Position numbers and translations under genes: made by a program
Shown: positions 6,909 to 42,957 of the stretch, piece by piece
How positions within the stretch are numbered: position 1 is the stretch's first letter
How the letters are laid out: every line of letters starts with the position of its first letter
Assembly: GCA_002256345.1 (NCBI GenBank)
Contig: NKIY01000005.1
Span: forward strand, 438,485 to 502,484
DNA: 64,000 bases
DNA from: Bradyrhizobiaceae bacterium PARB1
GTDB taxonomy: Bacteria; Pseudomonadota; Alphaproteobacteria; Rhizobiales; Xanthobacteraceae
Reading direction: 5' to 3'
Notes under the pieces: model-generated
Database searches by the model: none
What the model saw: the letters and a program-made list of their open reading frames with translations, nothing else
What the model was told of the DNA's origin: nothing

Positions 6909-6934
6909 TTAAATTAAGGTTAACATCGTCTTAA
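6909..6934. promoter_or_regulatory. Triple CtrA half-site array upstream of flagellin 1
   Basis: Three TTAA blocks are spaced by exactly 7 bases each (TTAA-N7-TTAA-N7-TTAA; starts at 6909, 6920 and 6931). This is two overlapping perfect CtrA boxes, the first with the extra C of TTAAC. They lie 215 bases upstream of the flagellin 1 start. The stretch between the boxes and the gene (6695-6908) contains no other gene. Confidence 0.65.
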
Positions 6935-6967
6935 GAGCTTGCAGGAGGCTTGCAGCTGCGCGCAAAA

Positions 6968-30588: not shown

Positions 30589-31697
30589 TGCGCCCTCTCC
30601 TCCTCGCTATCGCTGCCCTGTGCTGCGTCGCTTCGGCTGCGATCGCACAGGAGCCGGTGCGCGAGGAGCTGCGTATTCCATTCTCTGCCGCAGGGCCGCG
30701 CGGTCTGGAGGCGGTGTTGCTGAAACCGCCGGGGACGCGGCGATTTCCGCTCGCGCTGCTCAGCCACGGTGCGCCGCGGGATGGCGCCGATCGTCCCGCC
30801 ATGAATCCATCGCGCGCGCATGCGCAAGCAATGGAATTCGTCCGCCGCGGCTTTGCTGCCCTCGTGGTGATGCGGCGCGGCTACGGCACATCCGATGGCG
30901 CTTTCGTCGAACGCGCCGGACCTTGTGAAAAGCGTGACTATTTCACCGCCGGCAATATTTCCTCCGACGACTTGCGGGCAGCTATCGATTCGATGAGCGG
31001 GCGCACGGATGTGACAACCCAGGGCATGATCGCCGTCGGCATCTCCGCCGGCGGCTTTGCCAGCGTGGCGCTTGCGGCCCGTCCGCCGCCGGGCCTTGAC
31101 GCCGTGATCAGTTTTGCCGGCGGTCGCGGCTCGCGCAGCGACAATGACGTGTGCTCCCCCGACGCGCTGGTCGCTGCCTTTGCCAGCTACGGCAAGACGG
31201 CACGCGTCCCGATGCTTTGGATCTATGCGCAGAACGACAAGTATTTCGGCCCCGACCTTGCCCGCCGGATGCATGCGGCTTTCATCGGAGCGGGCGGCCG
31301 CGCACAACTGATCGAGGCGCCGGCCTTCGGCGAGGATGGCCATGCGCTCTACTCGGCGCGCGGAATCCCGCTCTGGACGCCGATGGTCGATCGGTTCCTG
31401 CGCGAGCAGAATCTCGGTACCCGCGATCTGATAGAGGTATCCGCGCCAAGCCTGATACCGCCGCCACAACTCGGCGAGAATGGTCGCTCCAATTTTGCAA
31501 GCTATCTGGCAAGCGGCCCGCACAAGGCCTTTGCTGTGTCGCCGCGCGGCGCGTTTGCACACCGGGCCGGTCGTCGCAGCGAGCAGGAGGCACGCGACGA
31601 CGCGCTCGCCGCCTGCGCCAAATATGCCAAGGATTGTGCGATCTATGCGATCGACGACAAGCTTGCCGGCGCCGCCACGGCAGCCGGCCCGCGCTAG
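30588..31697 (+). CDS. Exported alpha/beta hydrolase (dienelactone hydrolase-like)
   Basis: This 369-residue secreted protein has a signal peptide of about 21 residues ending AIAQ. The alpha/beta hydrolase core has the nucleophile elbow VGISAGGFASVAL (Ser), an LWIYAQNDKYFGP block carrying the likely acid residue, and a His in EDGHALYS. The C-terminal 80 residues (SNFASYLASGPHKAFAVSPR and following) look like an appended DUF4189-type domain and may be a separate module. It is translationally coupled to the thioesterase gene. The substrate is unknown. Confidence 0.78.
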   Translation: MRPLLLAIAALCCVASAAIAQEPVREELRIPFSAAGPRGLEAVLLKPPGTRRFPLALLSHGAPRDGADRPAMNPSRAHAQAMEFVRRGFAALVVMRRGYGTSDGAFVERAGPCEKRDYFTAGNISSDDLRAAIDSMSGRTDVTTQGMIAVGISAGGFASVALAARPPPGLDAVISFAGGRGSRSDNDVCSPDALVAAFASYGKTARVPMLWIYAQNDKYFGPDLARRMHAAFIGAGGRAQLIEAPAFGEDGHALYSARGIPLWTPMVDRFLREQNLGTRDLIEVSAPSLIPPPQLGENGRSNFASYLASGPHKAFAVSPRGAFAHRAGRRSEQEARDDALAACAKYAKDCAIYAIDDKLAGAATAAGPR

Positions 31698-31778
31698 AGC
31701 GTTTTCGCTGCCGGTTCGCGTCGCGAAAACGCGTCAAACTAAAAGGCTGGAGCTTCGGTTCTGTTTCGATCAGAACCG
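31697..31778. repeat. Double hairpin intergenic repeat
   Basis: Two inverted repeats occur in tandem: GCGTTTTCGC / GCGAAAACGC (31697-31730) and TTCGGTTCTG / CAGAACCGAA (31752-31778). This 'GCGTTTTC ... GGTTCTGAT' element is recalled as very common between genes in Bradyrhizobium-type genomes. It separates two convergent genes and may terminate both. Confidence 0.7.
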
Positions 31779-31791
31779 AAAAGCCCCTGGA

Positions 31792-32112
31792 TCAGGCCTG
31801 ACGCTCCGGCGTGATCACGACCAGACCGTCCAGCGTATCGGAGACCTTGATCTGGCACGAAAGACGCGAGTTCGGCTTGATGTCATAGCCGAAGTCCAGC
31901 ATGTCCTCTTCCATCGGGGTCGGCGCGCCGACCTTTTCCATCCAGGCATCGTCCACATAGACGTGGCAGGTCGCGCAGGCGCAGGCGCCGCCGCATTCCG
32001 CTTCGATGCCAGGGATGGCATTGCGGATCGCCACTTCCATCACGGTGGAGCCGACATCCGCATCCACGGTGCGGGTTTCGCCGGAATGATCGACAAAGTT
32101 GATTTTGGCCAT
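31792..32112 (-). CDS. 2Fe-2S ferredoxin, adrenodoxin type
   Basis: This 106-residue ferredoxin has the cluster ligands Cys40-x5-Cys46-x2-Cys49 ... Cys86, the vertebrate adrenodoxin / rhodocoxin / ISC-Fdx spacing, within [14 protein letters not shown]. The acidic helix MEEDMLDF is the usual partner-binding surface. It transfers electrons from a ferredoxin reductase to a P450, hydroxylase or Fe-S assembly system; no isc genes or P450 are adjacent, so the partner is unknown. Confidence 0.93.
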
Positions 32113-32213
32113 GATGCTCGCGTCGCCGGGGAGAAAGATACGGCTGTCCTATAACGGGTCGATCCACGCAGCGCCAGCGCTCCGCCGCAAAACCGTCATC
32201 TGGAAATGGGGGC

Positions 32214-32591
32214 TTACGACCGCTTGAGCAGGCCGTCGATCTCTTCGCGTGCCTCGAGCACGGCGTCGGTCAGGCTCATCAGCGCCTCGGTATTGTCGCT
32301 GTTGTCCCGCAGACAGTTTTCCAGCCATTCGGCCGCATCGATTACACGGAAAGCACCGACCGCCTCCGCAGAGCCGCGGAGCTTGTGCGCCAGCCGGTCC
32401 ACATTGTCCGGCATTTTCACGATTTTCTCGATCAACTCGCTCGCCTGGGCCGCGAACATGGCCAGGACCTCACGCTCCAGCGACGCATCGCCCATGGTCA
32501 TGCGCTTGAGGTGATCGAAATCGAAAGGCCCGTCATCGGGAACCAGCGGCGGTGACGGCATCCATTGAACCCGTTCGAGATGAAGCGGCAT
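32214..32591 (-). CDS. Histidine phosphotransfer (Hpt) domain protein
   Basis: This stand-alone Hpt protein of about 125 residues has a four-helix bundle with the phospho-acceptor His69 in LAHKLRGSAEAVGAFRVIDA. It would relay phosphate between a hybrid kinase and a response regulator, neither adjacent. The start is uncertain: 32591 is used, but ATGs at 32624 and 32561 and a GTG at 32642 are possible and none has a well-placed ribosome site. It is divergent from the GPR-like gene, with CtrA-type sites in the 411-base gap. Confidence 0.8.
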   Translation of the reverse strand: MPLHLERVQWMPSPPLVPDDGPFDFDHLKRMTMGDASLEREVLAMFAAQASELIEKIVKMPDNVDRLAHKLRGSAEAVGAFRVIDAAEWLENCLRDNSDNTEALMSLTDAVLEAREEIDGLLKRS

Positions 32592-32752
32592 TGATATTGG
32601 CCCAGAATTCCCTCCGCCGGTCATTCCGGCGGCAATTTTCACGAGCCAAACACGGAATTGGTTAACGGAACGTGTTGTGCACGATCCGGCATTCCGCCGC
32701 CATTTTGACGAAAACTCGCCACGATTCCGGGGCCAATCGCGATATTCGTGGC

Positions 32753-32805
32753 TTAACAGATAGTTACCGGGAGAAGCCGTTAACTATCATTAAGAATGTC
32801 TTAAC
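32753..32805. promoter_or_regulatory. Pair of CtrA boxes upstream of the GPR-like gene
   Basis: The perfect box TTAA-N7-TTAAC (32790-32805, TTAAGAATGTCTTAAC) has a further TTAA at 32780. A near-perfect box TTAA-N7-TTAC lies at 32753-32767. A TTAACCAA (minus strand, around 32658-32665) sits closer to the Hpt gene. The rest of the 411-base gap (32592-33002) shows no ORF. Confidence 0.65.
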
Positions 32806-33002: not shown

Positions 33003-36000
33003 ATGGCAAACAATTCAAAGAAGGCCAAGGATCCGACCGAAGTCGCTCTCTCTGCCATTCAGGAGGCGCTCAATGTGGACGGAGCGCGAGAGCCCAATCT
33101 GCGCGCCGACAACGCACCGGCCACCAGCCCCGTAGATCTCGACGAACCCCGCTTCGATTCCCGCGTCACTGCAGAACGTCCCGCCTTCGAGCCGGTTGAG
33201 GAGCCACGCTTCGGTCGCCGCGCCGCCAATGACGATCGCGAGACCATTGGCCAGATCTTGCAGGCGCTGCAGAAGAACCGCCCGTCCCGCAACGTCTACA
33301 CCCTCGCCACGCTGTTTGCCGGCGTCTGGGTGATCGCCGCCGCTTTCCTTGCTTTCGCCTTCCTGCCGTCGCTGCAGGCCATGGCCGGCCAGGGCTCCGG
33401 CGGTACGCTGGCGCTTGTCGGCCTCGCCGCAGCGCTGGTCGCACCGATCCTCCTGTTCTATTTCCTCGCGGCACTCGCCTGGCGTGGCCAGGAAATGCGC
33501 ATGATCGCCCAGTCGATGGCGCAGGTCGCGATCCGCTTCTCGGAGCCGGAAGGCTCATCCAGCGATGCCATGGTCACCGTCGGCCAGGCTATCCGCCGCG
33601 AAGTCGCCGCCATGGGCGACGGCATCGAGCGCGCCATCGCGCGCGCCGGCGAACTGGAATCCCTCGTCGCCAACGAAGTCTCGGCGCTGGAGCGCGCCTA
33701 TTCGGACAACGAAGTGCGCATCCGCGCGCTGCTGCAGGACATCGCCCATCAGCGCGACAACCTCGTCGGCCAGGCCGAACAGGTCCGCTCGGCGATTTCC
33801 GGCGTGCAGATCGATCTCCGCCACGACATCGCACTGATCTCCGACGCCATTGCGTCGCGCGTCGATGACGTCGCCAAGAGCATCACGAGCGCACTCGAAG
33901 AGCGCGGCGAACACATCACCTCGGCCCTTGGCCGCGCCGGCGACAACATGATTCTCGCCCTCGGCGAGCGCGGCGGCGACCTGCTCGACCGCCTGGAAGA
34001 AGCCAGCGGCGAGACCACCCGTGCCGTGCTGGAAGCCTCGGAGCGTCTGACCACCAGCCTCAACTTCAAGACCGGCCATGTCCACGACGAGTTCGTCGAT
34101 CTCGCCGATCGTGTCCACGAGATGCTCAACGAGCGCATCGACCGCATCACCAACGATTTCGAACAGCGCTCCGCCTCGATCGTCGATCGCGTTTCCGATC
34201 GCACCGAGCAGGTCCACGATACGCTGAAGAACTCCAGCGACAGCCTGTTGCTCGAACTCGAGTTGCGCAGCAACGACCTCTCCAGCCGCATCGACGATGC
34301 CGGCAATCGTCTCGCCACGCAGGTCCTCACCTCCGGGGACAAGGCGAGCGAGTCGCTCGAAGCCACCGTCACCGCCCTTGCCGCCAAGGTCGCGAGCCAG
34401 ACTGAGAGCGCGCACGATACGCTCAGCCTCCAGATGAGCGCTTTCGAACAGCTCGTGAAGGATCAGGGCCTCGAGCTTGCCGAGCGCTTCTCGCGCGACA
34501 GCGGCAATCTCGGTGCCATCATCACCAAGCACATCTCTGAATTCGACCGCACCGTGAAGACCTTCGGTGGCGAAGTGGTCGAGCGTCTCGGTCAGCGTAC
34601 CGAGGACATCAACAATACGCTGAAGACCTATGTGGACGGCTTCGACGCCCGCGTGACCTCCAATATCGGCGGCATCACCGACACGCTCGACGGTCGCCTC
34701 GCCCATTTCGAAACGACGTTCGAGAACCGCGTCAACAGCCTCGACTCGTCGCTCGACAGCCGCATGCAGTCGTTCGACCAGACCGTCGACAACCGCCTCA
34801 AGGGCCTCGAAGAAACGTTCGACCAGCGCGCGCAGTCGGTCACCGCGATCGTTGAAGCACGCCTGCAGTCGCTGCAGTCGACGCTCACCGACGGCGCCGA
34901 GCGTGCGGTCGACACGGTGGATGCGCGCCTGACCCATCTCACCACCTCGCTGACCGAAGGCACCACCCGTGCCGTCGCGACCATCGACACCCGCCTGACC
35001 CACCTCACCAATTCGCTCACCGAAGGCGCGGTGCAGGCGATCCATTCCATCGACGACCGCCTGTCGTTCCTCACGACCTCGCTTACCGAAGGCACCGTGC
35101 AGGCGATCGGCGCCATCGATCACCGCATTACAGGGGTCACCCTGGCCATCGATGATCGCAGCAACAGCCTTGCCGACAAGATCACCGCACGTTTCCAGAG
35201 CATCCATCAGGGTGTCGAGACCCGCGCCGGCGCCATCGCAAACGAGATCGAAACCCGCGTCGAACAGTTCGAGGAATTGCTCGGTTCGCGTATCGAGGCC
35301 GTCGCCGGCCGCATCGAGACCTCGGGCCGTACCGCCAGCGACCAGCTCATGGCCCGCGCCGAAGAACTCTCGGTCGGCATCAAGAGCCATGTGGACGATG
35401 CCGAGCGCGTGCTCACCCATCTCATGGTCAACACCAGCGAGACGATCCAGGCCGGCGCCCGCGCCGCGCAAGAGTCTCTCGTTTCGGTCTCGACCGACGT
35501 CGGCGCGCAGCTGCGCCTGACTGCGAGCGATATCGAAAGCTCGCTCACCGCCATCGGCACCAATGCCGCCGGCGCCATCGTATCGAGCGCACGCGAGGCA
35601 CAGACCACTCTCATCACCGCGTCGAGCGACGCCGCCGAGCAGGTCAAGACACTGTCCGCCGATGTCGAGCGCACGCTCACCAGCGCCGGCACGACCACCG
35701 CCGCCTCGATCCTGGCCGGCGCCCGCGACGCCCAGACCACCCTCGTCTCGACCTCGACCGAGGTCACGACCCACGTCCAGACGCTATCGGCCGATATCGA
35801 GCGCACGCTCACGACCGCCGGCACCGCAACGGCCGACGCCATGCTGTCCGGCGCCCGTGCCGCACAGTCCACGCTGGTCACCGCCTCGACCGACGCGACA
35901 CAGCAGGTCCGCTCTCTCGCGGCCGATGTGGAGCGCACGCTGGTCGCTGCCGGCAATGCGAGCGCGGAATCCATCCTCGCCTCGACCCGCAACGTGCAGT

Positions 36001-38531
36001 CTTCGCTCATCGAGGCCTCGACCGAAGCCGCCAACCAGGTGCGCACGCTCGCAGCCGATGTGGAGCGCAGCATCACCGCGGCCGGCGCGGCCACCGCGAA
36101 TTCGATCGTCACCGGCGCCCGCGAAGCGCACAACACGCTGGTTCTCGCCTCCTCGGAAGCCACGACTCATGTGCAGACGCTCTCGGCCGACATGGAGCGC
36201 AGCATCACCGCCGCGAGCAGTGCGACCGCCGACGCGATCGTCAGCCATGCCCGCGAGGCACAGTCGGCCCTGATCGCGGCTTCGACCGAGACCACCTCGA
36301 CCGTCCGCAACCTCGCAACCGACGTCGAGCGCACGCTCACCGCGGTGGGTGCCGATGCGGCCGCCTCGATCCTGTCGAGCGCCCGGGAAGTGCAGACCTC
36401 GCTCACCACCTCGTCGGCTGACGCCGCGTCGCAGATCAAGTCGATCTCGGCCGAGATGGAACGGTCGCTGGCCGCCGTCACCGCCAACACCACCGACAAC
36501 ATTAAGTCGACCGCCGTCGGCGCGCAGCAGACGCTGATCGCGGCTTCGACCGAAGTCGTCACCCGCATCAAGACCACCTCGTCGGAGATCGAGCGCTCGG
36601 TATTCACCGCCTCGGGATCGTTCGGCACTACCATGAGCGCGAAGACCGACGAAATCGTCGGCTATGTGCAGCAGCAGACCGACCGCCTGTCGCAGATGGT
36701 GGACGCCAAGCGCGGCTCGCTGGTCGATGCACTCGGCTCGAAGGCCAACCAGCTGACGGTCGACATGGACCGCGTGACGGTGGATGCGCTGAAGGCGATC
36801 GAAAGCCGCAGCCAGACCTTCTCGCAGACGCTCGCCACCAGCGGCGTCGATGTCGCCCGCGCCATCACCACGGCTGGCGAACTCGCCGCCGGCGCCGTCA
36901 ACAAGTCGCTCAAGGACCTCGAGACCTCGTCGCGTTCAGCCATCGAGCAGTCGCGTCAGGTGTCGATCACCGCGGTCACCGAAATGCAGGAGACCAGCAA
37001 GATCCTACGCACCGACACGGTGGCGCTGTTCGAGCGGCTGCGTGAAGGCAACATCCTGCTGCAGGAGGTGCTCACCGGCGCCCACGACAACCTCAACTCG
37101 CTGGAGCGTGCACTCGTCACCCGCGTGGCCGACTTCGTCGCCACCATGAACGACGTGACGTCGCGCAACGGCGTCGCGACCCAGACACTGGAAGAGCAGC
37201 TCACCGTCTTCACCGCCAGGTCGGAGAAGGCGCTGGAGGATCTCGGCGAACTCTCGACCCAGTTCGAGGCGCATGGTCACGCGCTGGTGGATGCCGCAGC
37301 CCTGGTCGAACAGAGCAACCGCTCGACCCTCACCTCGGTCGGCGACAAGAAGGCGGCGCTGGAATCGCTCGTCACAACCATCGACAGCCGCACCAGCGAT
37401 CTCGACGCACGCCTGTCCCGCTTCACCGGCCTGCTCGACGAGTCGCTGGCCGCTGCGGAAGAGCGTGCGCGCGACATCGCCCGTGTCGTGGCAGAGACGG
37501 CTGGCGCCGGATCGTCGGCGATCACCCGGCAGTTCGAAGCCGTGCGCAGTGCGGCGGAAGACGAGCGCCGCGCCACCACCGATGCGATGGCCGAAATCTA
37601 TCAGCAGGGCACCCGCGAAGCGGAAGCCATGTTCAAGACCTCGGCGGACAAGTTCGCCTCCATGGTCGTGAGCATGAAGGCGATGGCCGCCGAAATGCAG
37701 AACGAGCTCGAAAGCACCCGCACGGAACTCCGCCGCGGCGTTTTCGAGATGCCGCAGGAGGCCGCCGAGAGCACCGCGCAGATGCGCAAGGTGATCGTCG
37801 ACCAGATCGAGGCGCTGGCCGAGCTCAACCGCATCGTGGCCCGCCATGGCCGCGGCATGGATGTCGTCTCAACCGCCACCCGCAGCGCGCCACAGCGCGA
37901 ACGCGAGCCAGAGCCTGTGATGGCCACCGTCAGCGCCAGCCGCGTGGAAGCCCGCGCCGAAGCACCGCGTGCGGAAGCGCCACGCACGGAGGCACCGCGT
38001 CGTTCGTCGATCGGCACAGCGTCGAGCCTGCCCACTGCAGACTTCGGCAGCCCGTCGCGCCGCACCGAGGCGCCGTCGGTCGCACCGGCCGCTGAAGGAC
38101 GAGGTGATGGCTGGTTGAGCGATCTGCTCGGCCGCGCCGAGGACGAAGAGGAAGAAGCGCCGCGCGCCCGCGCGCCGCAGCCGGCAGCCCCCAGCAATCC
38201 GCTGGAGTCGCTGTCGCTCGACATCAGCCGCCTGATGGACCGCAATCTCGCCGCCGAGATGTGGGATCGCTACCAGCGCGGCGAGCGCAAGGCCTTCAGC
38301 AAGCGCCTCTACACGCCAGCCGGCCAGAAGGCGTTCGATGAAGTGGCCCGCAAGTATCGCGCCGACCGCGCTTTCAAAGGCACGGTGGATCGCTACATCA
38401 CCGAGTTCGAGCGCCTGCTCGACGAAGTGGCCCGCGACGAGCGCGGTCCGGCGGCGCTGCGCGCGCACCTGACCTCGGAGACGGGTCTGGTCTACACGCT
38501 GCTGGCCCATGCCGCGGGGCGGCTGGGGTAA
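33003..38531 (+). CDS. Giant GPR-like (growth pole ring) membrane coiled-coil protein
   Basis: The product has 1842 residues. The N-terminal 95 residues are polar and cytosolic. Two transmembrane helices follow (about 100-121 and 132-157), then about 1500 residues of continuous helical, apolipoprotein-like sequence. Four 22-residue units occur at 618-705 (pattern D-RLTHLTTSLTEG--AI) and eight 44-residue units at 842-1193 (pattern AD-ERTLTAAG--), with a ninth degenerate one. A charged Pro/Ala/Arg linker (about 1630-1730) precedes a globular C-terminus with AEMWDRYQRGERKAFSKRLY. The layout matches the Growth Pole Ring protein of Agrobacterium, required for polar growth. GPR identity is inferred from architecture and size, not alignment. 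Confidence 0.75.
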   Translation: MANNSKKAKDPTEVALSAIQEALNVDGAREPNLRADNAPATSPVDLDEPRFDSRVTAERPAFEPVEEPRFGRRAANDDRETIGQILQALQKNRPSRNVYTLATLFAGVWVIAAAFLAFAFLPSLQAMAGQGSGGTLALVGLAAALVAPILLFYFLAALAWRGQEMRMIAQSMAQVAIRFSEPEGSSSDAMVTVGQAIRREVAAMGDGIERAIARAGELESLVANEVSALERAYSDNEVRIRALLQDIAHQRDNLVGQAEQVRSAISGVQIDLRHDIALISDAIASRVDDVAKSITSALEERGEHITSALGRAGDNMILALGERGGDLLDRLEEASGETTRAVLEASERLTTSLNFKTGHVHDEFVDLADRVHEMLNERIDRITNDFEQRSASIVDRVSDRTEQVHDTLKNSSDSLLLELELRSNDLSSRIDDAGNRLATQVLTSGDKASESLEATVTALAAKVASQTESAHDTLSLQMSAFEQLVKDQGLELAERFSRDSGNLGAIITKHISEFDRTVKTFGGEVVERLGQRTEDINNTLKTYVDGFDARVTSNIGGITDTLDGRLAHFETTFENRVNSLDSSLDSRMQSFDQTVDNRLKGLEETFDQRAQSVTAIVEARLQSLQSTLTDGAERAVDTVDARLTHLTTSLTEGTTRAVATIDTRLTHLTNSLTEGAVQAIHSIDDRLSFLTTSLTEGTVQAIGAIDHRITGVTLAIDDRSNSLADKITARFQSIHQGVETRAGAIANEIETRVEQFEELLGSRIEAVAGRIETSGRTASDQLMARAEELSVGIKSHVDDAERVLTHLMVNTSETIQAGARAAQESLVSVSTDVGAQLRLTASDIESSLTAIGTNAAGAIVSSAREAQTTLITASSDAAEQVKTLSADVERTLTSAGTTTAASILAGARDAQTTLVSTSTEVTTHVQTLSADIERTLTTAGTATADAMLSGARAAQSTLVTASTDATQQVRSLAADVERTLVAAGNASAESILASTRNVQSSLIEASTEAANQVRTLAADVERSITAAGAATANSIVTGAREAHNTLVLASSEATTHVQTLSADMERSITAASSATADAIVSHAREAQSALIAASTETTSTVRNLATDVERTLTAVGADAAASILSSAREVQTSLTTSSADAASQIKSISAEMERSLAAVTANTTDNIKSTAVGAQQTLIAASTEVVTRIKTTSSEIERSVFTASGSFGTTMSAKTDEIVGYVQQQTDRLSQMVDAKRGSLVDALGSKANQLTVDMDRVTVDALKAIESRSQTFSQTLATSGVDVARAITTAGELAAGAVNKSLKDLETSSRSAIEQSRQVSITAVTEMQETSKILRTDTVALFERLREGNILLQEVLTGAHDNLNSLERALVTRVADFVATMNDVTSRNGVATQTLEEQLTVFTARSEKALEDLGELSTQFEAHGHALVDAAALVEQSNRSTLTSVGDKKAALESLVTTIDSRTSDLDARLSRFTGLLDESLAAAEERARDIARVVAETAGAGSSAITRQFEAVRSAAEDERRATTDAMAEIYQQGTREAEAMFKTSADKFASMVVSMKAMAAEMQNELESTRTELRRGVFEMPQEAAESTAQMRKVIVDQIEALAELNRIVARHGRGMDVVSTATRSAPQREREPEPVMATVSASRVEARAEAPRAEAPRTEAPRRSSIGTASSLPTADFGSPSRRTEAPSVAPAAEGRGDGWLSDLLGRAEDEEEEAPRARAPQPAAPSNPLESLSLDISRLMDRNLAAEMWDRYQRGERKAFSKRLYTPAGQKAFDEVARKYRADRAFKGTVDRYITEFERLLDEVARDERGPAALRAHLTSETGLVYTLLAHAAGRLG
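34854..35117 (+). repeat. Four 66-base (22-residue) repeats inside the GPR-like gene
   Basis: Units start at 34854, 34920, 34986 and 35052. Each encodes -ARL-SL-STLTDG---AVD-V type sequence. 22 residues is the period of apolipoprotein amphipathic helices. Confidence 0.85.
35526..36581 (+). repeat. Eight 132-base (44-residue) tandem repeats inside the GPR-like gene
   Basis: Units begin every 132 bases from 35526 (residue 842). Each carries (A/S)D-ER(T/S)LTAAG, then a central (A/S)AREAQ(T/S)(T/A)LI and (A/S)STEA---V-(T/S)L. The register is exact through 36582, where a degenerate ninth unit begins. DNA identity between units is moderate, so this is an old expansion under selection rather than a fresh duplication. 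Confidence 0.9.
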
Positions 38532-40114: not shown

Positions 40115-41023
40115 TCAGCGCCGACGCTGCTGCGGCGGCGGTTGCTGCTGCGGGGGCGGTGCCTGTTGCGAGCTGGAGCTCGGACCGAACAGCAGACGTG
40201 TCGGGTTGCGGTCGAGATTGTTCACCGCGCGGCTGACGTCACCCAGCGTCCGGCTGGCATCGCCGAGGGTGCGGCGGCCATCGACGATCAACTGCCCGGT
40301 GCGCTTGTCCAGATTCTCCGTCAGCTCATGGAACGACTTCACCGCCGCCGTCAGTGCGCCGCCATCCTTGCCGCCGGCCAGCGTATCGAGGCCGAGCATG
40401 ATATTGTCGGTCTTGGCGACGACGCCATCGGCCTTGCCCATGATGCTGTCGATCTTTTTCATGATGCCGTCGATCGACTCGGCATTGCGCGCGAGCACGC
40501 CCGTGAAGGCCTCGACATTGCTGATGGCGCCCTTCAGCGCCTCCTGATTGTCGGAGACCAGTCGGTTGACGTTCTGCAACGTGGCGCGCACGGCCTCGCC
40601 GATATCCCGGGTGGCATCGGGATCGGCGGTGAGCACCGGCACGCCATCGGTATCGAGCGGCACTTCCGCCGCATCCGGTGCGCCACCCTTCAGCGAGATC
40701 GCGGAAACGCCGGTAAGACCCTGGAATTCGAGGCCGGCCAGTGTGTCCTTGCGGATCGGCGCCACGGTGTCGATCATCGCCAGCGCCACCACGCGGCGCG
40801 GATTGTCGAGCTTCACCGAGACCACCTCGCCGACACGGATGCCGTTGAAGTTGACATTGCCGCCATTGCGCAGGCCCGAGGCCGAGCCCTCGAACACGAT
40901 GCGCAGCGGCGTGCGCTGCTTGCCCGAATTCAGGTTCTGGGACCACATTACGAAACCGATGACGGCGGCGATCACCGCCAGCGTGAAGGTTCCGATCAGG
41001 ACGTAATTCGCCCGCGTTTCCAT
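40115..41023 (-). CDS. MlaD-family MCE protein (lipid transport, substrate-binding)
   Basis: This 302-residue protein has one N-terminal membrane anchor (about 8-28) and one MCE domain (about 38-118: LRIVFEGSASGLRNGGNVNF, then NGIRVGEVVSVKLDN). A long helical region follows, then a Pro/Gln-rich tail. MlaD hexamers in the periplasm carry phospholipid between the outer membrane and the MlaFE permease. It is the third gene of the mlaE-mlaF-mlaD operon, starting 3 bases after mlaF ends. No MlaC or MlaA gene is adjacent. Confidence 0.9.
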   Translation of the reverse strand: METRANYVLIGTFTLAVIAAVIGFVMWSQNLNSGKQRTPLRIVFEGSASGLRNGGNVNFNGIRVGEVVSVKLDNPRRVVALAMIDTVAPIRKDTLAGLEFQGLTGVSAISLKGGAPDAAEVPLDTDGVPVLTADPDATRDIGEAVRATLQNVNRLVSDNQEALKGAISNVEAFTGVLARNAESIDGIMKKIDSIMGKADGVVAKTDNIMLGLDTLAGGKDGGALTAAVKSFHELTENLDKRTGQLIVDGRRTLGDASRTLGDVSRAVNNLDRNPTRLLFGPSSSSQQAPPPQQQPPPQQRRR

Positions 41024-41026
41024 CGT

Positions 41027-41827
41027 TCAGACTCCACTCAACCCCGTCACGGCGCGTGCGCGCTTGCCGTGGAAATATTCACGTAGCCAGGGATGCGTCG
41101 ATGCCTGCATATCGGCCATCGTTCCCTGAGCGATGATCTTGCCGCTGCCGAGCACGGCGATGCGGTCGCAGGCGGTGTGCAGGCTGTCGAGGTCATGGGT
41201 CACCATGAACACCGTGAGCCCGAGCGTCCGCTGCAGCGTACGAACCAGTTCGTCGAAATCGCCGGCGCCGATCGGATCGAGGCCGGAGGTCGGCTCGTCG
41301 AGAAACACGATTTCCGGATCAAGGGCGAGCGCACGCGCCAGAGCGACGCGCTTGATCATGCCGCCGGAGAGTTCCGACGGATAGCGCTCGACCACCTCCG
41401 GCTTCAGGCCGACCATGGCGAGCTTGGCCATGGTGATCTCGTCGAGCAGGCGCTGCGAGACTTTCAAATATTCGCGCACCGGAAACTGGATGTTCTGTCG
41501 CACATTCAGCGACGAGAACAGCGCACCATGCTGAAACAGGATGCCCCAACGGCGTTCGATGCTGCGGCGTTCCCTTTCGCTGCTGTCGAGATCGGTGCCG
41601 AACACCTTGATCTTGCCTGCCACTTTCGGCACGAGGCCGATGATGGTGCGCATCAGCACCGACTTGCCGGCGCCTGATGCGCCGACAAAGCCCAGGATTT
41701 CGCCGCGCGCGACATCGAGGTTAAGGCCATCCAGCACCTTGCGGCTGCCGAAGGCGACGGTGAGATCGCGAACGCGAATGATGGCGTCGCTCATGGGCGG
41801 TGCGATGTAAGTATCTGCCAAGGCCAT
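41027..41827 (-). CDS. MlaF-family ABC transporter ATPase
   Basis: This 266-residue nucleotide-binding subunit has Walker A GASGAGKS (49-56), the Q-loop in ILFQHGALF, the ABC signature LSGGMIKR, Walker B IVFLDEPTSGLDP and the switch His in VMVTHDLDS. It powers phospholipid movement through MlaE/MlaD. The start is the ATG at 41827, 2 bases after the mlaE stop; an internal start at 41794 is possible. The frame is open to 42460, but that upstream part is antisense-like shadow over mlaE. Confidence 0.93.
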   Translation of the reverse strand: MALADTYIAPPMSDAIIRVRDLTVAFGSRKVLDGLNLDVARGEILGFVGASGAGKSVLMRTIIGLVPKVAGKIKVFGTDLDSSERERRSIERRWGILFQHGALFSSLNVRQNIQFPVREYLKVSQRLLDEITMAKLAMVGLKPEVVERYPSELSGGMIKRVALARALALDPEIVFLDEPTSGLDPIGAGDFDELVRTLQRTLGLTVFMVTHDLDSLHTACDRIAVLGSGKIIAQGTMADMQASTHPWLREYFHGKRARAVTGLSGV

Positions 41828-41829
41828 GA

Positions 41830-42957
41830 TCAGATCCCGAGCGCCGCGAAGAAGATGGCGAACACCCCGTCCATCACGATGACAAAGAAAATGCCCTTCA
41901 CCACCGAAGCAGTGGTGTGCTGGCCCAGCGATTCCGCGCTGCCCCTCACGGCAAGACCTTCGACACAGGCGACGATCCCGATCATCAGCGCCATCACCGG
42001 CGCCTTCACCATGCCGACGATGAAATGATTGATCGAGATCTCGCGCAGGCGCGCGAGGAACGACGTCGGATCGACGCCGCCATAGAGCCACGCGACCAGC
42101 CCGCCGCCATACAGCGCCGCCATGGCGCCGATGAAAGCGAGGATCGGCATCGCCAGCGTCAAGGCCATCATGCGCGGCAGGATCAGCACTTCGACCGGAT
42201 CGAAGCCCATGGTGCGCAAGGCATCGATTTCCTCGCGCATCTTCATAGAGCCGAGCTCGGCCGTATAGGCGCTGCCGGAGCGGCCGGCGACCATGATGGC
42301 AACCAGCAGCACGCCAAGTTCGCGCAGCACCAGAATTCCCAGCATGTCGACGACGATGACATCGGCGCCGAAACGGCGGAAATGGAAGATGCCCTGCTGG
42401 GCAACGATGCAGCCGATCAGGAAGGTGATCAGCACGATGATCGGGACTGCGTTCCAGCACACCTGCTGCAGATGATGCACCATCGAGGTCAGCCGGAAGC
42501 GTGACGGATGCAGCCAGACCCGAAACCAGGCAGCGATCACCGCGCCAATCATGTCCACCAGCGACAGCAGCGTCTCGCCGATGCCATAGACATTGCGGCC
42601 GATGCCGTCGAGTGCCAGGACGATGCCGTTCGGCCCACGCCCGGGCGCCGGCTGCGGCTTCACCTTACGAACCTCGTCCACGAGGCTGGCATAGTTTTCG
42701 GAAAGGCCGGCGATCCTGATGTCCTGCCCGCCCGCCGCAAGCGCGCGACGCAACCGCTCGATCAGCCAGGCCCCGAACGTATCGAGTTTGGAGACATCGG
42801 AAACATCGATGGAAATATTCGCCCGGGTGCGGGCTAGCTTTTCGGCATCGGCGACCAGTTTTTCCAGCGCAGGCGCGGACGTAGCCGTCCACGGGCCGGC
42901 TGCGCACAGCGCGAGCCGATCGCCCTTGTCGATCTTTGCGAGTGTCGGACCGCTCAC
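41830..42957 (-). CDS. MlaE-family permease with fused N-terminal STAS (MlaB-like) domain
   Basis: This 375-residue protein has an N-terminal STAS-like domain (about 10-105, ISIDVSDVSKLDTFGAWLIE) fused to an MlaE permease (about 125-375) with five or six membrane helices. The conserved block is GSMKMREEIDALRTMGFDP. In enterobacteria MlaB is a separate subunit; here it is fused, which explains the missing mlaB gene. The GTG start at 42957 has an AAGG ribosome site. It is first in the mlaE-F-D operon. Confidence 0.92.
   Translation of the reverse strand: MSGPTLAKIDKGDRLALCAAGPWTATSAPALEKLVADAEKLARTRANISIDVSDVSKLDTFGAWLIERLRRALAAGGQDIRIAGLSENYASLVDEVRKVKPQPAPGRGPNGIVLALDGIGRNVYGIGETLLSLVDMIGAVIAAWFRVWLHPSRFRLTSMVHHLQQVCWNAVPIIVLITFLIGCIVAQQGIFHFRRFGADVIVVDMLGILVLRELGVLLVAIMVAGRSGSAYTAELGSMKMREEIDALRTMGFDPVEVLILPRMMALTLAMPILAFIGAMAALYGGGLVAWLYGGVDPTSFLARLREISINHFIVGMVKAPVMALMIGIVACVEGLAVRGSAESLGQHTTASVVKGIFFVIVMDGVFAIFFAALGI

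Follow-up and report, generated by a model that had tools for sequence, protein, structure and literature searches.

Genes and features of the locus

The stretch of DNA analysed here, hereafter called the window, comprises 64,000 nucleotides of Bradyrhizobiaceae bacterium PARB1 (contig NKIY01000005.1) and carries a gene for a protein of 1842 amino acids (33003..38531, + strand). Based on the open reading frame (ORF) call, a Pfam scan and matches of both terminal domains, this protein is, as judged from its sequence, an orthologue of the Growth Pole Ring protein GPR of Agrobacterium tumefaciens and of RgsE of Sinorhizobium meliloti. An architecture like that of GPR had been proposed for it in the initial annotation.

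The conserved N-terminal domain (residues 61-200; 33183..33602, +), delimited in alignment A2, contains a nearly invariant ANDD motif (residues 75-78), a transmembrane (TM) hairpin and a helix after it. Two membrane helices had been expected near the N-terminus and were borne out by hydropathy as TM helix 1 (residues 103-121; 33309..33365, +) and TM helix 2 (residues 136-154; 33408..33464, +), numbered from the Met, i.e. after subtraction of the seven residues that precede it in the frame. From residue 183 to residue 1583 the protein forms a proline-free rod of 1401 residues (33549..37751, +), the next proline being residue 1584. Its description as long, apolipoprotein-like helices agrees with the Pfam scan, in which Apolipoprotein (PF01442) is the sole family above its cut-off on the 1842-aa protein (175.9 bits, compared to a cut-off of 90).

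The conserved C-terminal domain (residues ~1733-1842; 38199..38528, +), delimited in alignment A1, is helical in a predicted structure derived from 34 sequences, from residue 33 of the modelled fragment onward. The model has a mean predicted local distance difference test (pLDDT) value of 70 and a predicted template modelling score (pTM) of 0.61. A fold search of the PDB with this model gave no match at E ≤ 0.001, and searches of PDB sequences with the C- and N-terminal profiles yielded best E values of 0.12 and 0.68, respectively.

Orthology to GPR and RgsE

The profiles of the C-terminal (A1) and N-terminal (A2) domains were built from the window protein and relatives from its own and other families of the order, with no row from the family of the Agrobacterium-like genomes (f24). 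An Agrobacterium-like query over named genomes returned at least 596 stretches, at least 528 of which encode a relative, and the best 80 of the 528 were used as Rhizobiaceae loci. Their titles name Agrobacterium, Rhizobium, Sinorhizobium, Shinella and other genera, some only 'Rhizobiales bacterium' or 'Proteobacteria bacterium'; an S. meliloti record (L201) was added.

In the Rhizobiaceae loci, the C-terminal profile matched with E values of 1e-59 to 1e-64. For the N-terminal profile, loci with an intact N-terminus gave values of about 1e-33 to 1e-39; in L109 this end is split, and in L120, L126 and L155 it is truncated. Free of Rhizobiaceae rows itself, the N-terminal profile recovered 78 of the 80 Rhizobiaceae frames at E < 1e-3; contig ends interrupt the remaining two. 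Comparison of the window protein with that of a metagenome-assembled genome (MAG) of A. tumefaciens yielded an identity of 33% over 135 columns for the N-terminal domain (E = 5e-18, a single comparison) and of 49% over 152 columns for the C-terminal domain (E = 4e-48), so that both domains match GPR significantly. A C-terminal query found a match in all 41 genomes searched, the own genome included.

BLASTP aligned the window protein with the 2089-aa protein of S. meliloti over 868 columns (27% identity) and 384 columns (35%), covering both ends. In record CP090106 the latter is labelled 'kinesin', and its length is exactly that published for RgsE (2089 aa, PMC7327166). The published length of Agrobacterium GPR is 2115 aa (PMC8262873), which is one option for the frame of A. 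arsenijevicii counted from Met, while the A. tumefaciens MAG gives 2120-2132. The 3.7-Mb S. meliloti record (L201, CP090106.1) is named plasmid pSymB and appears to be a mislabelled chromosome.

Together with the common upstream gene order, these matches uphold the proposed orthology. The conservation of GPR across Rhizobiales has already been published, and the window protein adds another instance. Weak matches of ZorA and SpiroCoCo profiles within the rod would also fit a long coiled-coil protein that is only convergently similar to GPR, for example a ZorA-like or SMC-like protein. However, the ZorA match scores 29.9 bits and does not reach the NCBIfam cut-off of 190, both non-repetitive end domains match GPR/RgsE strongly, and the upstream neighbours agree. 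The own genome holds no second, better GPR orthologue: it encodes a single protein with both domains, and a second match (E = 0.0026) covers part of the rod only. Convergence is thus nearly refuted and can be considered extremely improbable.

Irregular copies were seen in several other genomes. In the own genus, a partial second GPR C-terminus lies about 2.3-3.2 kb beyond the gene in G005 (C11:82944-83057, a piece that contains a stop) and in G016 (C1:1622418-1622519; L044:15452-15823). Two GPR C-terminal copies, one of them at a contig end, are present in G020 (C2 and C4; L053, L066). In L047 (G006) and L109 (Shinella sp. UYSO24), the N-terminus and the rod are found in different reading frames of the assembly.

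Nested repeats of the rod

Four 22-residue units and eight 44-residue units with a degenerate ninth had been described for the rod, and both arrays proved to be real. Within residues 618-705 (34854-35117), which hold the four clear 22-residue units, the identity at lag 22 is 0.61, compared to 0.08 on average for lags not divisible by 11. Weaker, degenerate 22-mers on both sides extend the repeat region to residues 574-771 (34722..35315, +). The eight 44-residue units (residues 842-1193; 35526..36581, +), supported by lag identity, Tandem Repeats Finder (TRF) and unit comparison, have a mean pairwise identity of 0.47. At lag 44 they reach an identity of 0.474, a value not attained in any of 500 shuffles preserving the composition of the 11-residue columns. 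TRF detects both arrays in the DNA, with periods of 66 and 132. The ninth unit is present on the N-terminal side, where residues 798-841 (35394..35525, +) form a degenerate first unit with a mean identity of 0.355 (equalled in 0 of 2000 shuffles). None follows residue 1193: the candidate at residues 1194-1237 was rejected (identity 0.128, with 110 of 2000 shuffles as high).

The earlier suggestion that the 44-residue unit arose by doubling of the 22-mer is supported, though not strongly. Identity between the halves of the unit is 19.9%, compared to a mean of 10.6% (standard deviation 1.6%) over the other 42 circular shifts, and the 22-mers align best in register with the second half. Both observations fit doubling, and the 44-residue unit is probably a doubled 22-mer.

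With a detection threshold set to the top score in shuffled copies, the array of the 16 closest proteins comprises 8-12 units, and that of a genome from g25, a genus of the own family, comprises 10. Such variation would be expected if the array were a recent, species-specific expansion whose units are kept alike by gene conversion, and the sister-genus protein L049 does hold recent unit duplicates, its own paralogues being up to 82% identical. Position-by-position matches argue against this history for the window. Each of its nine units shares 95-100% identity with its closest counterpart in another species, whereas no other unit of the same array exceeds 66% identity to it. As identity across species is far above identity within the array, the sequences indicate an old block conserved by position, in which whole units were gained and lost, and a recent origin is very unlikely.

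Rods of other lineages repeat at other lags, namely 33/66/99 in L091, 40/80/120 in L100 and 88 in L096 and L115. Rod periods that are not multiples of 11 were observed in L100 (G063; 40) and in L203 (G318) and L204 (G252; 29 in both).

Helical phase and hydrophobic stripe

Rod phases were compared between groups of loci. Loci with a frame below 600 aa or with too little flank were dropped from the phase-group counts and from those of the neighbouring Hpt and Mla genes given below, and 29 of 33 MreB-bearing loci were analysed, the four with fragmentary frames being skipped. The own-genus set includes the sister-genus locus L049 (G022). L058 and L097 stem from the same genome (G034), which is counted twice for Hpt and may be so in the order counts of phase, Mla and the CtrA-type box. 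'MreB-less' is an assumption for all Rhizobiaceae loci and for the majority of rows from the own genus and family.

The hydrophobic signal of the window rod peaks at 98.4 degrees per residue, near three turns per 11 residues (98.18). The phase is 98.4 in the own-genus set (n = 16), 98.3-98.8 in other members of the order (n = 28), 98.5-98.9 in Rhizobiaceae (n = 80), 98.6-99.9 in MreB-bearing members of the order (median 99.2, n = 29) and 98.6-99.7 in short MreB-less ones (median 99.2, n = 17). Proteins from outside the order range from 99.6 to 101.2 (median 100.7, n = 21), near seven turns per 25 residues (100.8). Lag 25 gives a higher identity than lag 22 in 19/21 proteins outside the order versus 3/170 inside (0/16, 1/28, 0/80, 1/29 and 1/17 for the groups in the sequence given above). 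Three scales combined with two other window lengths shifted the phase medians by at most 0.4 degrees. The phases outside the order never overlapped those of the own-genus, other-order and Rhizobiaceae groups in any setting, while single MreB-bearing members reached 102.5 in one. Across all rows except Rhizobiaceae, and with kinship ignored, the phase decreases with rod length (Spearman -0.70). Within the window rod it is 98.2 in the 44-residue array and 99.7 in residues 1400-1600.

Bulky hydrophobic residues occupy 80-100 degrees of the rod in the window, A. tumefaciens MAG and S. meliloti proteins, and charged residues amount to 1-4% there. In the window rod, bins exceeding half the maximum cover 100 degrees, Lys contributes 2.2% and Ala, Ser and Thr together 37%. 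One hendecad position of the 44-residue array is Ile, Leu, Val or Met in 32/32 repeats; two others are aliphatic in 78% and 66%, with Ala included and frequent.

Apolipoproteins are small secreted lipid carriers, for which an 11/22-residue helical periodicity is typical. The rod could be a true apolipoprotein-like lipid binder, with amphipathic helices that rest flat on the growth-pole membrane, shaping or feeding it, without forming a coiled coil. This reading draws on the PF01442 score, on matches to the apolipoprotein A-IV chains 3s84 and 9hx4 at E values of about 2e-5, on the shared 11/22-residue periods and on the Mla lipid-transport genes downstream in many relatives. The narrow stripe, the low Lys and high Ala, Ser and Thr contents and the three aliphatic positions of the array would argue against it. 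As measured in the GPR/RgsE proteins, the stripe appears to resemble a hendecad coiled-coil seam more than a lipid-binding face, and lipid binding by the rod is regarded as unlikely.

Distribution and coexistence with MreB

Of 297 genomes of the order, 291 carry the C-terminal domain; 11 of these positives contributed rows to the profile itself, including the MreB-bearing G025. A full-length MreB match (E < 1e-100) is present in 33 of the 297 genomes, the next best match having an E value of 1.8e-18. All 33 MreB-bearing genomes possess the GPR C-terminal domain, and such an MreB is missing from the six genomes that lack the domain. The N-terminal domain is present too in 29/29 MreB-bearing genomes with a testable frame. 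Rgs proteins and MreB were stated to be mutually exclusive on the basis of four Rhizobiales species that have MreB but no Rgs homologues (PMC7327166). For RgsE within the order, the coexistence in 33/33 genomes disagrees with this statement.

Outside the order, a class-wide search detected the C-terminal domain in 109/285 genomes at E ≤ 0.001, two of the matches being weaker than 1e-6. MreB is found in 105 of these genomes at E < 1e-100 and in one at 2.7e-58, whereas three have none. Of 21 proteins from outside the order examined with the N-terminal profile, 11 gave a significant match, which makes full homology secure for roughly half. RgsE homologues outside Rhizobiales were already reported in PMC7327166, and coexistence with MreB is thereby implied in print for these lineages.

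No true MreB was detected in the own genome. The two matches above the cut-off are HSP70 (650 aa) and FtsA (450 aa), an identity of such weak matches that was checked in this genome only, and a third MreB-like match (20.5 bits) is below the cut-off.

Frame lengths within the order were determined for 80 genomes, with about 60 further ones, whose lengths the domain search had not listed, left out. No MreB-bearing genome of the order (0/33, four of the frames being fragments) has a GPR frame of at least 1500 aa. Outside the order, 17 of the 109 domain-bearing genomes have such a frame. MreB as a driver of rod length or phase was rejected, since short MreB-less and MreB-bearing proteins share the median phase of 99.2 (n = 17 and 29) and since all 17 long frames outside the order co-occur with MreB. 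Second, shorter frames with the C-terminal domain were observed in two MreB-bearing genomes of family f31 (G252:C26, 448 aa; G318:C5, 443 aa).

Neighbouring genes

The conserved neighbour upstream of the GPR gene is a divergent gene for a single-domain Hpt protein (32214..32642, -; PF01627, E = 1.3e-9) with a phosphoacceptor-type His in the motif AHKLRG. Upstream of it lies a 2Fe-2S ferredoxin-like gene (31792..32112, -), which was assigned by position: its antisense frame matches the place of an S. meliloti neighbour with Fer2 (PF00111). An ORF on the opposite strand (31480-32154, +) was rejected as a conserved gene and is an antisense shadow of the ferredoxin-like gene, though it looked conserved in BLAST. 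In S. meliloti, the genes for the (2Fe-2S)-binding protein, Hpt and RgsE are arranged as in the window, and in a record of Sphingomonas parapaucimobilis Hpt adjoins a GPR-like protein of 774 aa.

A divergent Hpt gene is present in 117/126 loci of the order that extend 900 bases or more upstream (the window, 17/22 of the own genus and family, 21/25 of the order and 78/78 of Rhizobiaceae) and in 7/21 such loci outside it. L096 has an Hpt-like frame in the other orientation. The presumed phospho-acceptor column holds His in 108/124 aligned copies; the sphingomonad-type copies L196 and L202 are without it. A full-text search on both names did not find Hpt paired with RgsE in the portion of the literature that was accessible.

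Downstream, convergent with the GPR gene, follow genes for an MlaD/MCE lipid-transport protein (40115..41023, -; PF02470, E = 1.9e-14), for an MlaF-type ABC ATPase (41027..42460, -; PF00005 at residues 242-391 of an ORF whose true start is probably inside) and for an MlaE permease (41830..42957, -; PF02405, E = 2.4e-67). In loci with at least 2.5 kb downstream, MlaD or MlaE occurs in 14/15 of the own-genus set, 6/8 of the family, 11/25 of the order, 47/78 of Rhizobiaceae and 0/2 outside. The downstream Mla genes are thus common to only part of the order. In L181 and L183, two loci outside the order with a shorter flank, a MlaD-like frame lies about 700 bases away. An ORF of 194 aa after the GPR stop was found in one other locus only.

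CtrA-type box

A candidate CtrA-type box was located in the Hpt-GPR intergenic region (32790..32805, no strand assigned) by a pattern match to TTAA-N7-TTAAC, which we take to be the CtrA-type consensus. Boxes were counted within 900 bases upstream of the N-terminal domain, and a locus was used if one frame held both domains and at least 900 bases preceded the N-terminal domain. A box is present in 14/14 loci of the own-genus set (13 of the own genus including the window, one of the sister genus), in 1/8 of the family, 5/19 of the order, 22/78 of Rhizobiaceae and 1/11 outside. It was found in 0/27 MreB-bearing genomes of the order and in 0/17 MreB-less genomes with short rods. Shuffles, which preserve base composition only, expect 0.02-0.24 boxes per group, and the rest of the loci, mostly coding sequence, have 0.0018 per 900 bases; the counts are interdependent through the relatedness of the loci. 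The only other sites of this type in the window are two with overlapping starts (6909 and 6919) at 6909-6935.

Proposed function and history

Taken together, we propose that the window protein is the GPR/RgsE counterpart of its host and would serve as a scaffold of unipolar growth. The two N-terminal TM helices are predicted to anchor it in the inner membrane, and about 1,400 residues would form one cytoplasmic helical rod of 11-residue repeats. Via its narrow aliphatic stripe the rod may oligomerise as a right-handed (hendecad) coiled coil. The C-terminal domain would dock partners of the polar growth machine, the simplest inference given that Agrobacterium GPR without 221 or 332 C-terminal residues is blocked in complementation (PMC8262873). 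The rod would have been lengthened by tandem copying of blocks of 22 and later 44 residues, CtrA probably times production through the upstream box, and a role as partner in signalling is probable for the divergent Hpt protein. We consider this explanation as a whole likely. It is supported by the orthology of the end domains, the single copy, the lack of MreB in the own genome, the shared gene order, the hendecad stripe, the position-conserved units, the box in 14/14 loci and the published function of GPR/RgsE (PMC8262873, PMC7327166).

Several points weigh against the proposal. The rod is too repetitive for collinear homology to be proven from its sequence, the predicted structure (mean pLDDT 70) spans the C-terminal domain only and found no match in the fold search, and the putative oligomeric state and handedness derive from sequence phase alone. 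Hpt was not found in 9/126 loci of the order and 14/21 outside it, neither MlaD nor MlaE adjoins GPR in the loci of A. tumefaciens, A. pusense and A. arsenijevicii or in the two of S. meliloti, and the CtrA-type box is missing in 7/8 own-family, 14/19 order and 56/78 Rhizobiaceae loci. The coexistence with MreB inside the order, the difference in phase, the Hpt gene nearby and the candidate box are correlations from sequence and do not demonstrate function. None of these four was met within the accessible part of the literature searched, in which a link between CtrA and GPR was not specifically looked into.

A different history, joined to a role as a ruler, was weighed as a single claim. GPR would then be an old alphaproteobacterial membrane-anchored rod and not a replacement of MreB invented by polar growers. 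The ancestral rod would have been near-straight, with a 25-residue (7+7+11) period, and would have lived beside MreB. In Hyphomicrobiales the repeat would have been purified to 11 residues, with the predicted supercoil shifted to right-handed, and block copying would have lengthened the rod; several lineages would have put the gene under a CtrA-type box beside an Hpt partner. Rod length would serve as a ruler of the polar growth zone: with a helix rise of 0.15 nm per residue, 1401 residues correspond to about 210 nm, near the published ring diameter of 200 nm. All parts taken jointly, this claim is doubtful.

The proposed scaffold bears on how MreB-less Hyphomicrobiales place wall growth. The analysis provides limits for the GPR domains, namely the domain with ANDD motif and TM hairpin and the helical C-terminal domain (about 110 residues, without PDB fold match), as well as a natural length series of GPR rods. 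The phase difference predicts differing rod geometries, and the conserved Hpt neighbour, along with the CtrA-type box of some lineages, makes the timing of polar growth directly testable. The GPR family coexists with MreB in every MreB-bearing genome of the order sampled (33/33), versus the exclusion inferred in PMC7327166.

Comparison with known systems

GPR of A. tumefaciens (Atu1348, 2115 aa), as seen in the MAG, shares with the window protein the TM hairpin, the proline-poor rod, the conserved C-terminal domain, the 11-residue phase and the Hpt neighbour. It differs in that the published protein is 273 residues longer, that lag 22 dominates the Agrobacterium rod whereas the window array consists of 44-mers, and that no MlaD/MlaE genes adjoin the A. 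tumefaciens gene. RgsE of S. meliloti (SMc00190, 2089 aa) matches at both ends and has the divergent Hpt and (2Fe-2S)-binding genes upstream. However, the top lag in the 4H41 protein is 22 and not 44, and MlaD/MlaE do not adjoin the gene in two S. meliloti loci. As a GPR/RgsE orthologue, the window protein would be predicted to form a growth-pole ring and to yield round or branched cells on depletion or overexpression.

Apolipoprotein A-IV (PDB 3s84, 9hx4) resembles the rod in a weak sequence match (E about 2e-5) and in the 11/22-residue periodicity of apolipoproteins, while the window rod is TM-anchored and lysine-poor and has a narrow stripe. TipN of Caulobacter crescentus (882 aa) is called similar or analogous to GPR in PMC8546619 and PMC13170164, a likeness by description that serves as a lead.

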